A DNA stretch of 64,000 bases. Source: an uncultured Flavobacterium sp. (GTDB lineage Bacteria > Bacteroidota > Bacteroidia > Flavobacteriales > Flavobacteriaceae). The stretch lies in contig NZ_CANRNX010000003.1 of NCBI RefSeq assembly GCF_947632075.1, positions 1 to 64,000 of the forward strand, written 5' to 3'. Every line of letters begins with the position of its first letter. Position 1 is the first letter of the stretch. Positions 2,776 through 39,340 of this stretch are shown here, piece by piece. The position numbers and the translations under genes are program-made. The notes beneath the pieces were generated by a model. It saw nothing but the letters and a program-made list of their open reading frames with translations. It made no database searches and was not told the origin of the DNA.

Positions 2776-5700
2776 ATGAATAAATTAATTGATACTGCTA
2801 TTGCCAAACGATGGCTAATGCTTTCATTGTTTGCATTAATTGCTTTGTTTGGCTATTATTCTTGGAAACATTTAGCAATTGAAGCTTACCCTGATATTGC
2901 TGATGTAACTTCACAAGTTCTAACGCAAGTTCCGGGTTTAGCAGCCGAAGAAATTGAACAACAAATTACCATTCCAATTGAACGTGCTTTAAATGGTTTA
3001 CCTGGAATGCATGTAATGCGAAGCAAAAGTACTTTTGGTCTTTCGATAATTACACTTGTATTTAAAAACGGTGTAGATGATTATTGGGCAAGAATGCGCA
3101 TTCAAGAACGTTTAACTGAGTTGGAATTACCATTTGGGGCAGTTCCGGGTTTAGATCCTTTAACTTCACCAATTGGGGAGGTTTATCGTTATATAATTGA
3201 AAGTGATTCTCATGATTTACGTGAACTAACTGATTTGCAAAATTTTGTAATCATTCCAAAAATCAAACAAATTTCTGGAGTTGCTGAAGTGACTAATTTT
3301 GGCGGAATTACTACACAATATCAAATTGAACTTGATCCTAAAAAACTCGACACCTATAATTTATCTTTAAACGAGGTTATCAAAACCATAGAAGAAAACA
3401 ACATCAATTCTGGTGGAAGTATTTTACCTAAAGGTGATTTAGGTTATGTAATTCGGGGAATTGGTTTGGTTAAAGATTTAAACGATTTCGGTAAAATTGT
3501 AGTAAAATCAGAAAAAGGAATTCCTATTTTATTAAACGATATCGGAACGCTTAAATATGGAAATGTAGAACGAAAAGGAATTTTATCCTATACCGATCGT
3601 GAACGGGATTATTCTGACAGCATTGAAGGAATTGTTTTACTTTTAAAAGGAGAAGATACCTCAGCCGTTTTAGAAAACATTCATTTGGCAGTAGCCGAAT
3701 TAAATTCAGATTTACTACCGAATGGGGTTAAAATCCATCCTTTTTTAGATCGGACCGAACTGGTAAACACAACCTTAAACACGGTATCACATACATTAAT
3801 AGAAGGCATTGCCTTAGTTGTAGTAGTATTGATTATCTTTTTAAAAAACTGGCGTGGAGCTTTATTGGTTGCTATTACCATTCCATTATCACTTTTAATT
3901 GCATTCATTTTAATGCATTTTACCAATGTACCAGCAAACTTACTTTCGTTAGGTGCTATCGATTTTGGAATCATTGTAGATGGTTCAATTGTAATGCTCG
4001 AATCTATTCTTAAAAAACGAGAAGAAGATGAAAAAGAAGAGCTCAAAGAAAAAACCATAGCAACTATAGCTAAACAAGTTGCCAAGCCCATTTTCTTTGC
4101 AACGCTTATTATCACTACTGCATATTTACCGCTATTTGCGTTTGAACGGGTTGAAAAAAAACTATTTACTCCGATGGCATTTACCGTAAGTTATGCGTTG
4201 TTTGGCGCTCTGTGTGTAGCGCTTTTATTAATACCCGGGCTGGCTTATGCGGTTTATAAAAAACCTAAAAAAATACAGCAAAACAAATGGCTAGAAAAAC
4301 TTACAAACTCTTATTCAAATCGGATCATTCACATAATGAAAAAACCTAAGAGAGTTTTTCTTCCCTTAGCAACTGTTTTATTTTTTGCCATTGGTCTTAC
4401 TTTTTTGGTTGGAAAAGATTTTTTACCAACTTTAGACGAAGGTTCTATTTGGTCGCAGGTTGAACTTCCTCCAGGATTATCAATTGAAAAATCGAAAGAA
4501 ATGGCAGATACATTACGTGCCCGAACTATGAAATATGACGAGGTTACTTACATCATGATTCAAGCTGGTAGAAATGACGATGGAACAGATCCGTGGACAG
4601 CATCGCATTTTGAAGTTTCCATTGGAATTAAACCTTATAAAGATTGGCCTAAGGGAAAAACAAAAAACGATTTAATTCATGAATTAGCCAATGAATATGC
4701 AAGTTTACCAGGCTATACTGTTGGTTTTTCGCAACCAATGATTGATGGGGTTATGGATAAAATTTCGGGTGCACATAGCGAATTAGCTGTTAAAATTTAT
4801 GGTGATGATTTTGCAGAAACGCGTCGTATTGCTGAAAATATAATGAATGAACTAAAAACTGTTAAAGGAGCTGTTGATTTAGCAATTGATCAAGAACCGC
4901 CGCTACCACAATTGCAAATTCATGCTAACCGAGATAAAATTGCTCAATATGGATTAAACGCATCAGATGTTGCCGAACTCATTGAAGTAGGAATTGGCGG
5001 AAAAGCTATTTCACAAATTTTTATCGATGATAAAGTTTACGATATTATTTGTAGATATACAGATGAAAGCCGAAACACAACAGATAAGATAGCAAACTTA
5101 ATGTTAACCAATCAAGATGGAATTAAAATTCCGTTAGCTCAAGTTACCGATATCAAAACAAGTACAGGAGAAAGTACGATAACTCGAGAAATGAATAAAC
5201 GCCATTTAACCGTAAAATTAAATTTACGAAATCGGGATTTAGGTTCTTTCCTAAAAGAAGCTCAAAATAAAATTGAAAAAAACATAACCTATGATCATGC
5301 CAAAAACCACATCAAATGGAGTGGTCAATTCGAAAATCAAAACCGAGCGTACGATAGGTTAATTTTAATTGTTCCCTTAGCAATTGCATTGATGTTTTTA
5401 CTTTTATACGGAGCTTTTGGTAACATAAGACAAGCTTTGCTTTTAATTAGCATTGTGCCATTGGCTGTTTTTGGTGGCATGTTAGCTTTAAACATCAGAG
5501 GTATGACTTTAAATGTTTCTTCTGTTGTTGGGTTTATTGCTTTGTTTGGCGTTTCCATTCAAAATGGAGTTATCATGATTTCTTACATCAATCAGCTAAG
5601 AAAAAAAGGGCAATCACTTTACAGTGCAGTTATAGATGGAGCCAAAGATAGATTTAGACCTGTTTTAATGACAGCCACAGTTGCTGTATTGGGTTTATTA

Positions 5701-5865
5701 CCAGCATCTTTAGCAACTGGTATTGGCTCTGATGTTCAACGTCCGTTGGCAACCGTAATTGTTTATGGATTGATGTTTTCGAGCATCATTACTCTTTTTG
5801 CATTACCCGCTTTATATTATTTGGTAGAAAAAAAATGGGGAAGAGAAGAAGAAGAATCAAATTAA
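2776..5865 (+). CDS. Heavy-metal efflux RND transporter, CzcA/CusA family
   Basis: 1029 aa; DFGIIVDGSIVMLES in TM4 resembles the divalent-cation HME signature. Confidence 0.95.
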   Translation: MNKLIDTAIAKRWLMLSLFALIALFGYYSWKHLAIEAYPDIADVTSQVLTQVPGLAAEEIEQQITIPIERALNGLPGMHVMRSKSTFGLSIITLVFKNGVDDYWARMRIQERLTELELPFGAVPGLDPLTSPIGEVYRYIIESDSHDLRELTDLQNFVIIPKIKQISGVAEVTNFGGITTQYQIELDPKKLDTYNLSLNEVIKTIEENNINSGGSILPKGDLGYVIRGIGLVKDLNDFGKIVVKSEKGIPILLNDIGTLKYGNVERKGILSYTDRERDYSDSIEGIVLLLKGEDTSAVLENIHLAVAELNSDLLPNGVKIHPFLDRTELVNTTLNTVSHTLIEGIALVVVVLIIFLKNWRGALLVAITIPLSLLIAFILMHFTNVPANLLSLGAIDFGIIVDGSIVMLESILKKREEDEKEELKEKTIATIAKQVAKPIFFATLIITTAYLPLFAFERVEKKLFTPMAFTVSYALFGALCVALLLIPGLAYAVYKKPKKIQQNKWLEKLTNSYSNRIIHIMKKPKRVFLPLATVLFFAIGLTFLVGKDFLPTLDEGSIWSQVELPPGLSIEKSKEMADTLRARTMKYDEVTYIMIQAGRNDDGTDPWTASHFEVSIGIKPYKDWPKGKTKNDLIHELANEYASLPGYTVGFSQPMIDGVMDKISGAHSELAVKIYGDDFAETRRIAENIMNELKTVKGAVDLAIDQEPPLPQLQIHANRDKIAQYGLNASDVAELIEVGIGGKAISQIFIDDKVYDIICRYTDESRNTTDKIANLMLTNQDGIKIPLAQVTDIKTSTGESTITREMNKRHLTVKLNLRNRDLGSFLKEAQNKIEKNITYDHAKNHIKWSGQFENQNRAYDRLILIVPLAIALMFLLLYGAFGNIRQALLLISIVPLAVFGGMLALNIRGMTLNVSSVVGFIALFGVSIQNGVIMISYINQLRKKGQSLYSAVIDGAKDRFRPVLMTATVAVLGLLPASLATGIGSDVQRPLATVIVYGLMFSSIITLFALPALYYLVEKKWGREEEESN

Positions 5866-36208: not shown

Positions 36209-36640
36209 ATGCAAAAACAGAAATACATATCGTTTTTATTGGCGGTTATTCTAATGTTTTCGAACGTTGGATTAGCTATTAATATTCATTATTGTAAAGA
36301 TGCAATTGCAGAAGTTGCTTTTGATTTTTTATCTGAATCGAAACTAACTTCATTACAAGAAGAAAAATCTGAAATTTGCTGTGGAAAGAAAAAAACAACA
36401 GAAAATGACGAGCCTTGTTGTAAAGACGAAGTAGTTAAACAGAAAGTAGACGAAAATCAAATCGCAACAAATTCAGTACAGTTTCAAGTAAATAATTTTC
36501 TTGCACCTGTAATCTATCAGTTAGTAATTCCTGAAACTTTTGAATTACAAATTCCTAAAAACACATTCGTTCAATTCTATTGTGAATCGAATGCACCACC
36601 TCTTTATAAGTTATATCGCAAATTAGTTTATTACGCATAA
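36209..36640 (+). CDS. HYC_CC_PP-type small exported metal-associated protein
   Basis: IHYCKD, EICCGKKK, EPCCKDE, NAPPLYKLY motifs. Confidence 0.85.
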   Translation: MQKQKYISFLLAVILMFSNVGLAINIHYCKDAIAEVAFDFLSESKLTSLQEEKSEICCGKKKTTENDEPCCKDEVVKQKVDENQIATNSVQFQVNNFLAPVIYQLVIPETFELQIPKNTFVQFYCESNAPPLYKLYRKLVYYA

Positions 36641-36694
36641 AAACATAGATTTTTAATTGATTATTAAATATCTATAAATTTTTTATGCACTAAA

Positions 36695-38935
36695 ATGAAA
36701 AAATATATCTTATTGTTATTTTGCGTATTGTTTCAAAGCATTCAAGCGCAAGAAATTATTTCAGGAAAAGTTGTAGACAAAAACAACAAACCACTTGAAT
36801 ATGCCTTGGTTTCTTGGAAAGGTACCGAGATTGGAACCGAAACTGATTCTAAAGGTAGCTTTGAATTAGAATTTGTTTCTGATGCTATTTTAGAAATTTC
36901 TTATGTAGGTATGGAAATTTCGCAAACCTCAACATTTCCTACAAAAACAAATCTCACTTTTACTTTAACTGAAGAAAAGGCTTTAGATGAATTGGTTATT
37001 AAAACTAACCGTAGAACTACAACGCGTTCGTTAACTTCGAATACGAACACCATGACCATGAACAGCGCCGAACTACTTAAGGCAGCTTGTTGTAATTTGG
37101 CCGAATCTTTTGAGACTAATCCGGCGATTGATGTAAATTTCTCTGATGCAATTTCAGGAAGCAAACAAATTAAAATGCTTGGATTAACAAGTCCGTATAT
37201 TTTAATAGCAGAAGAAAACATTCCTACAGTCCGCGGAGCTTCGCAGGCTTATGGTTTGTCGTTTACGCCAGGAACTTGGGTTGAAAGCATTCAGGTTACT
37301 AAAGGAGCCGGAAGTGTTGTTAATGGTTTCGAAAGTATTTCAGGTCAAATCAATACCGAATTAATTAAACCTGCAACAGACATTCCCTTTTATCTGAATT
37401 TATACGGTTCAACCGATTCGAGATTTGAAATCAACACCCATTTAAATCATAAATTAAACAACAAATGGAGTTCAAGTTTATTTATTCACGGAAATACGCG
37501 AGTTGCCAAAAACGATATGAACCACGATGGCTTCTTAGATAATCCGTTAGGAAACCAAATCAATGTTATGAATCGTTGGCAATATATAGACCAAGAAAAA
37601 GGCTTAGTTGCTTTTTTATCTGCTCGTTATATGAAAGATGACAAACAAACAGGTGAAATTGATTTTGATAAGAAAAGAGATAAAGGAACCACTAACCTTT
37701 GGGGTTCTGAAATCAACACAGAAAAATTTGATGCGAATGCTAAAATTGGTTACGTTTTTCCAGATATGCCGTATCAAAGTATTGGTTGGCAAAACTCTTT
37801 CAGTTACCACAATCAACAATCTTATTTTGGTTTAAACGAATACAACATTACACAAAGAAGTTTTTATTCGAATTTAATTTTTAGTTCAATTATCAGCAAT
37901 ACGTTACATAAATTTTCTACAGGTTTAAATTTCATGTACGATAATTACGGTGAAAATGTTTTCAATTACACAGCAAACAATTACGACAGAACAGACAATT
38001 CGGTTGGAGCTTTTTTTGAATATACTTATGATAATGCAGATAATTTTGCATTAGTATTAGGAGGCCGAGTAGATAATTCTAATCGTTTAGGTTTATTTGT
38101 TACACCAAGAGTACATTTAAGATATAATCCGTGGGAAGATGCCGTTTTCAGAGCTTCAGCTGGAAGAGGAAAACGTTTAGCAAATATCTTTGCAGAGAAT
38201 CAATATTTATTTGCAAGCTCAAGAACCTTCAATATAAATTACAGTGACGGAAAAGCGTACGGTTTAGATCCAGAAATTGCTTGGAATTACGGAATTAGTT
38301 TTTCACAAGGATTTCATTTATTTGGAAGAAAAGCTGAAGTAGCTTTTGACTTCTATCGTACAGATTTCCAAAATCAAATTGTAGTTGATTTAGATCAATC
38401 AGCAAGAACTGTAGATTTTTATAATTTAGAAGGAAAATCCTACGCAAATTCATTTCAGTTTGACATGACATATAACCTAGCTAAACATTTGAATTTTCGT
38501 GCAGCTTATAAATATTACGACATTAAAACAACTTACAAATCAGGAAATTTAGAACGTCCGTTACAAGCTAAAAATCGTTTTTTTGTTAATTTAGAATATC
38601 AAACACACGAAACTGAAACAGGTGGAAGTTGGAAATTTGACGCCACTTGGAATTGGTTAGGAAAACAGCGCTTGCCTTACACAGGTGACAATTTAGCAGA
38701 GAACAGATTAGGTGAGTATACCAATCCGTTTTCTACATTAAATACTCAAATAACAAAGGTATTTAACGATAGATTTGAAATTTATGTTGGTGGAGAAAAC
38801 ATCACTAACTACCAACAAAACAGAGTTATTTTAGGTGCAGATGATCCGTTTGGTTCAAATTTCGATAGCACCATTATTTACGGTCCAATTTTTGGACAAA
38901 TGTATTATGCAGGTTTAAGATTTAAAATAAAATAA
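36695..38935 (+). CDS. TonB-dependent receptor with N-terminal carboxypeptidase-like regulatory domain
   Basis: ISGKVVDKNNKPLEYALVSWKGTEIGTETDSKGSFEL; plug with AACCNLAESFETNPAIDV; C-terminal barrel. Confidence 0.93.
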   Translation: MKKYILLLFCVLFQSIQAQEIISGKVVDKNNKPLEYALVSWKGTEIGTETDSKGSFELEFVSDAILEISYVGMEISQTSTFPTKTNLTFTLTEEKALDELVIKTNRRTTTRSLTSNTNTMTMNSAELLKAACCNLAESFETNPAIDVNFSDAISGSKQIKMLGLTSPYILIAEENIPTVRGASQAYGLSFTPGTWVESIQVTKGAGSVVNGFESISGQINTELIKPATDIPFYLNLYGSTDSRFEINTHLNHKLNNKWSSSLFIHGNTRVAKNDMNHDGFLDNPLGNQINVMNRWQYIDQEKGLVAFLSARYMKDDKQTGEIDFDKKRDKGTTNLWGSEINTEKFDANAKIGYVFPDMPYQSIGWQNSFSYHNQQSYFGLNEYNITQRSFYSNLIFSSIISNTLHKFSTGLNFMYDNYGENVFNYTANNYDRTDNSVGAFFEYTYDNADNFALVLGGRVDNSNRLGLFVTPRVHLRYNPWEDAVFRASAGRGKRLANIFAENQYLFASSRTFNINYSDGKAYGLDPEIAWNYGISFSQGFHLFGRKAEVAFDFYRTDFQNQIVVDLDQSARTVDFYNLEGKSYANSFQFDMTYNLAKHLNFRAAYKYYDIKTTYKSGNLERPLQAKNRFFVNLEYQTHETETGGSWKFDATWNWLGKQRLPYTGDNLAENRLGEYTNPFSTLNTQITKVFNDRFEIYVGGENITNYQQNRVILGADDPFGSNFDSTIIYGPIFGQMYYAGLRFKIK

Positions 38936-38943
38936 TTAAAACA

Positions 38944-39297
38944 ATGAAAAAGTACCTAATAATTTTTGTAGCAATATTCGGAATAGCATTCAATTCAAAT
39001 GCTCAAGAAAAAAAGAAAAAAAATGCTAAATATGATATTGAAGTTCGAGGAAATTGTGACATGTGCAAGAAAAGAATTGAAAAGGCAGCCTTTGGAGTTA
39101 AAGGTGTAAAATCTGCCGAATGGCATGCTGAAGATCAAACTTTACATGTTATTATGGATGAAAATAAAACATCAACTACAACAATTTCACAAGCGATAGC
39201 AAAGGTTGGTCATGACACAGGTGAAGTTCGTGCAACTGATGAAGATTACGCAAACCTTCATAATTGCTGCGTTTACGATCGTAACGAAACAAAATAA
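38944..39297 (+). CDS. Exported heavy-metal-associated (HMA) domain protein
   Basis: Signal peptide; RGNCDMCKKRIEKAAFGVKGVKSAEW; C-terminal HNCCVYDRNE. Confidence 0.9.
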   Translation: MKKYLIIFVAIFGIAFNSNAQEKKKKNAKYDIEVRGNCDMCKKRIEKAAFGVKGVKSAEWHAEDQTLHVIMDENKTSTTTISQAIAKVGHDTGEVRATDEDYANLHNCCVYDRNETK

Positions 39298-39300
39298 AAA

Positions 39301-39340
39301 CAAAAAAGCCTCAAACATATAATTTGAGGCTTTCTTGTTT
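39301..39340. terminator. Intrinsic terminator
   Basis: AAAAAAGCCTCAAACATATAATTTGAGGCTTTCTTG. Confidence 0.8.

Follow-up and report, generated by a model that had tools for sequence, protein, structure and literature searches.

A putative copper-handling cassette of Bacteroidota: a HYC_CC_PP leader, a TonB-dependent receptor with an invariant plug cysteine pair and an exported HMA protein

Introduction

The closest described counterparts of the locus analysed here are operons headed by a short exported protein that senses copper as a nascent chain. CruR of Bordetella pertussis, in the sections of its description drawn on here, is an exported leader of 145 aa with CXXC and RAPP motifs that controls a copper TonB-dependent transporter (TBDT) (PMC9426467), and its arrest has been demonstrated in vitro (PMC12992588). 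CutF of Rhodobacter capsulatus, according to the consulted portions of PMC9973294, senses copper as an exported nascent chain, has a stem-loop ahead of cutO and acts on a multicopper oxidase. The same portions survey CutF-like proteins, defined as having fewer than 150 aa, PP within the last 15 residues, a cleavable Sec signal peptide and a copper-linked gene on the same strand at most 1000 nt downstream, the start-covering stem-loop having been shown for CutF; 19% of them (40% when normalised) came from Bacteroidota, with TonB proteins frequent and RND proteins also present among the neighbours. In a 2025 survey, copper leaders of the RAPP/RGPP type were missing from Bacteroidota (PMC12992588). 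For Bizionia argentinensis, a related organism, HMA proteins and a TonB-dependent receptor (TBDR) have been proposed for Cu(I) (PMC11213822).

Here we analyse a three-gene cassette within a 64,000-nucleotide stretch of DNA from an uncultured Flavobacterium sp. (the window). The initial annotation knew of no described mechanism for such a cassette, which was too strong a statement: a copper TBDT under CruR and a multicopper oxidase under CutF are controlled in a like manner.

Cassette layout and genomic surroundings

The three genes share one strand with intergenic gaps of 54 bp (HYC to receptor) and 8 bp (receptor to HMA gene) in the ORF list, and a terminator-like hairpin follows them (Table 1), which bears out the compact, terminated cluster described in the initial annotation. 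The cysteine pairs it reported in every protein are also present: CC57-58 and CC70-71 in HYC, one pair in the receptor plug, and a CxxC motif and a CC tail in the HMA protein. The flanking genes, encoding a GAF-domain protein upstream and a DedA-type VTT protein downstream, are oppositely oriented and look unrelated to the cassette. The closest named relative is Paenimyroides tangerinum, with 88% receptor identity. An Rfam search of the cassette gave no match, and a sigma-70 promoter scan returned hits no more numerous than in shuffled sequence. Overall, the three genes look like one copper-handling unit of Bacteroidota, and the conservation of the cysteine pairs and of the cassette pattern is far above chance. 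Elsewhere in the window a CusA/CzcA-type RND pump, above the TIGR00914 cut-off, lies at 2779-5859; the single HYC gene of the genome is not adjacent to it.

Table 1. Features of the cassette, in window coordinates.
Feature	Position	Strand	Score or conservation
HYC_CC_PP ORF, 143 aa	36209-36640	+	NF047658 102.2 bits vs cut-off 28; heads copper operons
HYC codons 27-29 (H27-Y-C29)	36287-36295	+	H27, C29 invariant in 20 diverse members
HYC Cys70-Cys71, with C29 and C58 a putative Cu site	36416-36421	+	C71 130/130, C70 127/130
HYC Pro130-Pro131, proposed stalling element	36596-36601	+	P130 126/129, P131 127/129
Intergenic hairpin, HYC stop (36638-36640) to receptor start (36695)	36645-36675	+	-10.4 kcal/mol, z -3.3
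TonB-dependent receptor (TBDR), CC-plug clade, 746 aa	36695-38935	+	PF13715, PF07715, PF00593; 100/100 branch
Plug Cys132-Cys133 (AACCNLAESFETNP)	37088-37093	+	81/81 near relatives; 46/46 phylum loci and three further genomes
Exported HMA protein, C-terminal HxCC tail, 117 aa	38944-39297	+	PF00403 25.9 bits vs cut-off 24.8
HMA CxxC metal site, C38-D-M-C41	39055-39066	+	C38, C41 83/83
HMA tail H106-N-C-C109	39259-39270	+	C108, C109 83/83; H106 75/83
Terminator-like hairpin, two-way, closes cassette	39298-39340	.	

A receptor clade with an invariant cysteine pair in the plug

The window receptor exceeds the Pfam cut-offs for the CarboxypepD_reg, Plug and barrel domains. Against the SusC/RagA model TIGR04056 it scores 62.6 bits, below the cut-off of 368, and Foldseek matches of its fold (BtuB, Cir, OprC) are generic TBDRs only. 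The vicinal cysteines sit about 30 residues past the likely TonB box. Their count among near relatives comprises 80 loci found with the receptor plus the window itself, and the peptide patterns used to collect these relatives did not include CC. Of 198 Bacteroidota genomes searched with an HMM, 61 contain the receptor or a relative with E no greater than 1e-40; 46 family loci, inspected with their flanks, make up the phylum set, all of which have ACC in the plug, as do three further genomes. Nine related receptors lack CC, and the same nine also lack an HMA or HYC neighbour; in a tree, a strongly supported branch has the CC receptors on one side. The plug CC, whose lack of conservation in receptors beside HYC or HMA genes the initial annotation had named as one outcome that would refute its reading, is kept in every CC-family receptor so placed. 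In 36 of the 46 phylum loci the pair is the sole cysteine of the receptor core, so that no disulfide with another receptor cysteine is possible there.

Two AlphaFold runs (20 and 73 rows) on a relative's TBDR-HMA read-through gave a good barrel and HMA domain and a plug with pLDDT of about 25-35. Three loci (L192, L194 and L197) hold a separate branch of CC receptors, with a third cysteine nearby (ACCDLAGCF or ACCDLSGCF) and neither an HMA nor a HYC gene next to them, and in genome G146 a stop codon splits the receptor reading frame (L187:4942-7213).

The HMA protein and its tie to the receptor

The cassette HMA protein shares with MerP/CopZ-type proteins an HMA domain with CxxC and differs from them in its invariant C-terminal CC tail, mostly HxCC, and in being fused in places to receptors or to DUF3347; its scores are below the curated NCBIfam cut-offs for CopZ (33 vs 91 bits) and MerP (21.5 vs 92.6 bits). 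Its gene lies directly 3' of the receptor gene in 79 of 80 loci, the contig ending at that point in the exception. Across the phylum set (n = 46) it is upstream in 14, downstream in 13 and fused in 4, hence adjacent or fused in 31, with no HMA neighbour in the other 15. The HMA family is present in 45 of 50 genomes with the receptor as opposed to 21 of 148 without it, counts that are uncorrected for kinship, and five receptor genomes have no HMA protein of the cassette family at all.

Fusions of the form HMA-receptor and HMA-HMA-receptor occur as single open frames in four genomes belonging to two separate clades. Pfam finds receptor domains in each of the four; it finds the HMA domain in three of them, in one slightly below cut-off, and the remaining, fourth fusion matches the HMA model built in the analysis. 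The N-terminus of TonB-dependent receptors faces the periplasm, and in the fusions the HMA domain is therefore placed under the plug. As judged from sequence, the invariant CC, the gene adjacency and these N-terminal fusions support a joint function of receptor and HMA protein. Direct metal transfer between HMA and plug CC, in either direction, we regard as moderately probable.

Several observations concern HMA variants and their surroundings. One natural fusion (L178:4397-7114) has a His-rich linker of HEGHDH repeats between HMA and receptor, and AACC in its plug. HMA with the CC tail also occurs inside longer proteins (L231:5371-6258 and L233:5125-5988), that of L231 together with DUF3347. 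In sixteen loci (e.g., L088:7739-9838 and L099:8613-10651) a conserved gene pair lies 3' of the HMA gene and encodes a predicted exported protein with no family match (starting TCCSGG in L088) and a DUF3179 protein.

HYC resembles a nascent-chain regulator

The HYC family was found in 59 of the 198 Bacteroidota genomes. The name HYC_CC_PP appears in no paper of the literature searched, none of which reports an experiment on any of the three cassette proteins, and the parts of the E. anophelis and R. anatipestifer literature consulted do not single out the cassette. The initial annotation had placed HYC on the inner side, for which we find no support: the protein of the window begins as exported proteins do, with a hydrophobic stretch ending in VGLA (seen by eye), and is best regarded as a leader ORF. 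In 20 diverse members the sole invariant residues are H27, C29, C58, C70, C71, P130 and P131; in the larger sample C29 is kept in 128/130 and C58 in 125/128, with the first cysteine of the CC57-58 pair variable. The distance from CC to the stop is 70.6 residues with a standard deviation of 1.8, and that from C29 to CC has a standard deviation of 4.5. The ribosome tunnel and translocon together span roughly 70 residues, so the CC could reach the periplasm as translation ends. In the window 12 residues separate the PP from the stop. TGA is the stop codon of HYC in 61/74 and 33/55 cases, as compared with 33/482 and 122/538 for other genes of the same loci; the window HYC ends in TAA.

What follows HYC varies. 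Among 129 HYC genes, sampled mostly through the receptor and HYC searches and sorted roughly by motifs and models, the next gene most often encodes a CC receptor (60 cases, 2 with HMA fused to it), followed by HMA-MauE (19), exported HMA proteins (16), full RND pumps (9), and copper ATPases and HMA-AraC regulators (6 each), the remainder being RND fragments, unclassified genes and others.

The gap behind HYC has a characteristic fold, in which the bases at the HYC stop, or just past it, form pairs with those immediately ahead of the following start codon. At least 6 pairs between the stop arm and the start arm form in 70% of HYC gaps and in 34% of control gaps (co-directional and of similar length), and the HYC stop codon itself is paired in 59% versus 16%; in the phylum-wide subset the figures are 62% versus 40% and 53% versus 18%. 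When arms were swapped among 102 non-redundant gaps, own arms paired better than swapped ones (p = 1.8e-18; controls, p = 0.07), p-values that treat related loci as independent and carry no correction for kinship. The arms diverge in sequence and keep their complementarity. About 30% of HYC gaps lack a long-range stem. RNAalifold on 14 related gaps recovered no more than the inner stem, because the 3' arms misalign. Selected hairpins reach z from -3.3 to -6.5. That of the window is short, beginning 4 nt past the HYC stop and ending 19 nt ahead of the receptor start, and none of 200 shuffles was equally stable; being smaller and following TAA, it is one of the less pronounced cases.

The cysteine motif, the PP, the fixed CC-to-stop distance, the stop-codon hairpin and the varied downstream genes make HYC better read as a nascent-chain regulator. 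By analogy with CutF and CruR, it is probably a cis-acting, co-translational copper sensor.

Which metal

Maribacter-like genomes have, ahead of the receptor gene, a gene for a P1B-1 ATPase that carries the motifs CPC, NxxxxxxYNxxxxP and MxxSS. Among NCBIfam models CopA matches it best, under the equivalog cut-off, and it exceeds the cut-off of the copper ATPase model TIGR01511. In several of these loci the ATPase is itself preceded by an AraC-type regulator whose N-terminus is HMA-like, and other genomes have an HMA-MauE protein as the neighbour. Where HYC occurs without a CC receptor, a CusA/CzcA-type RND pump is often directly next, and CusB, a copper ATPase or a copper-resistance oxidase lies near some of these receptor-less operons. 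From such neighbours the metal is very probably Cu(I)/Ag(I). Short AraC-type regulators with the HMA-like N-terminus IKNMVCDRC (L046:1827-2411, L237:10410-10973) recur in copper operons, and the HMA-AraC regulators are possibly direct metal-sensing activators.

Proposed mechanism

For the cassette as a whole, the account we favour, with some confidence, is a copper operon composed of a HYC leader sensor, a CC-plug receptor and an HMA partner. HYC would act in cis during its own translation and export. Cu(I) would bind the cysteine motif of the nascent chain, translation would pause at the PP/C-terminal end or at the HYC stop codon, and the paused ribosome would hold open the hairpin by which the start of the following gene is otherwise masked. 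The plug cysteine pair of the receptor would be a periplasm-facing transfer site for Cu(I), and the exported HMA protein, as its periplasmic partner, would swap Cu(I) with it through CxxC and HxCC; in some lineages this partner is part of the receptor chain itself.

Alternative explanations and the direction of transport

A metal hand-off involving all three proteins, as envisaged in the initial annotation, would make HYC a stable periplasmic copper protein passing metal between receptor, HMA protein and inner membrane. The export-type N-terminus and invariant cysteines of HYC, together with its linkage to receptor and HMA genes, fit such a relay. We nevertheless consider it unlikely: unrelated copper genes follow HYC, including those of inner-membrane ATPases and cytoplasmic regulators, and neither the PP, the CC-to-stop spacing, the TGA bias nor the stop-codon hairpin requires a carrier. 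What survives of that proposal is the cooperation of receptor and HMA protein, with Cu(I)/Ag(I) as the most likely metal, and what lacks support is the relay station, as HYC also heads receptor-less operons with CusA or HMA genes. The plug CC might be structural or redox-active, forming a vicinal disulfide or a mixed disulfide with the HMA tail in place of a metal site, and its invariance in receptor cores mostly devoid of other cysteines agrees with that; a partner with a CxxC metal motif in its HMA domain, the copper operon setting and the His-rich linker of one fusion speak for metal and make this reading, too, a poor candidate. Vicinal cysteines are good binders of Hg(II) and Ag(I), an affinity that, with the weak MerP/MerTP matches of the HMA protein, would suit a MerP-like HMA and a receptor for Hg(II), Ag(I) or a metal-thiol complex. 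The annotated neighbours include no mercury-resistance gene and instead a Cu-type ATPase, CusA and a copper-resistance oxidase, so that another thiophilic metal is very unlikely.

If the cassette is a leader-controlled copper operon, the direction of transport is a closer matter: net import has slightly better than an even chance, and tolerance or export slightly less. A tolerance unit, induced by excess copper, whose receptor and HMA protein trap or expel periplasmic Cu(I), is a serious though lesser possibility, and can be reconciled with HYC as a sensor. Maribacter-type loci hold the CPC copper ATPase and the HMA-AraC regulator in the same stretch, and the HYC genes ahead of CusA have a hairpin of the same layout, a sign that the polarity is shared; were it identical everywhere, the receptor would be copper-induced like CusA, favouring tolerance. 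Known metal TonB-dependent transporters, however, are importers, and the opposite polarity does exist: at the head of a copper TBDT operon, CruR reduces expression with copper present, as reported in the sections consulted (PMC9426467). It is quite improbable that the receptor serves as an outlet, with copper delivered to the periplasm by pumps moving through HMA and plug CC to the outside by TonB-driven plug movement and copper-stalled nascent HYC as the switch.

Significance

To our knowledge, the route of copper across the outer membrane and its recipient beneath the plug are largely unknown in general. An invariant-CC receptor clade with HMA fused at the periplasmic end offers a concrete and mutable hand-off site. 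If HYC is indeed a copper-sensing leader, a widespread Bacteroidota family named solely for its motifs would gain a function, and nascent-chain copper sensing would become testable beyond Pseudomonadota. With PP lacking RA, HYC could be the Bacteroidota counterpart of the RAPP/RGPP-type leaders.

Comparison with known systems

As far as the consulted parts of PMC9426467 and PMC12914433 describe the CruR-BfrG/CrtA systems, they and the HYC operons both have a short leader of about 145 aa (exported in CruR and probably so in HYC) with a cysteine motif, a C-terminal PP and fixed Cys-to-Pro spacing, and a copper-linked TBDT. CruR has CXXC, RAPP, a 162-nt gap and Rho-dependent control in these accounts, whereas HYC has HxC/C/CC, PP without RA, short gaps and a stop-to-start hairpin, and an HMA partner of CrtA is not mentioned in those parts. 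The 20 diverse HYC members gave no hit to Pfam DUF2946, the CruR/CutF family, at E up to 1, and have CC and PP in place of a RAPP motif. HYC thus seems to work like CruR/CutF, and membership of that family is not implied.

CutF and HYC are alike, in what the consulted text of PMC9973294 reports, in having PP near the C-terminus and a stem-loop ahead of the downstream gene, and HYC is probably exported as CutF is. By the rules of that survey the window HYC is short enough (143 aa), has its PP at 130-131 of 143 and is followed on the same strand by the receptor 54 nt away; its stem-loop is predicted (z -3.3), with the stem ending 19 nt before the start. HYC relatives with 15-16 residues past PP fall narrowly outside the 15-residue rule.

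OprC of Pseudomonas aeruginosa and the cassette receptor are both copper-linked TBDTs with cysteine in the plug; OprC has a single plug cysteine, part of a CxxxM-HxM site to which both plug and barrel contribute (PMC8610252), and the cassette receptor has a vicinal pair. An OprC-type CxxxM is absent at the window plug cysteines (C132xxxA, C133xxxE). The Bizionia argentinensis TBDR was picked by the OprC motif, with motif-less receptors set aside (PMC11213822).

Nascent copper sensors are thus a class already known, CutF-like proteins having been surveyed earlier in Bacteroidota, and the description of CutF, in the parts consulted, names no HYC_CC_PP, stop codon within the stem, CC-to-stop ruler or TGA bias (PMC9973294). 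What the present analysis adds is HYC_CC_PP as such a leader, its stop-codon hairpin, spacing ruler and TGA bias, and the clade of CC-plug receptors with their HMA proteins.
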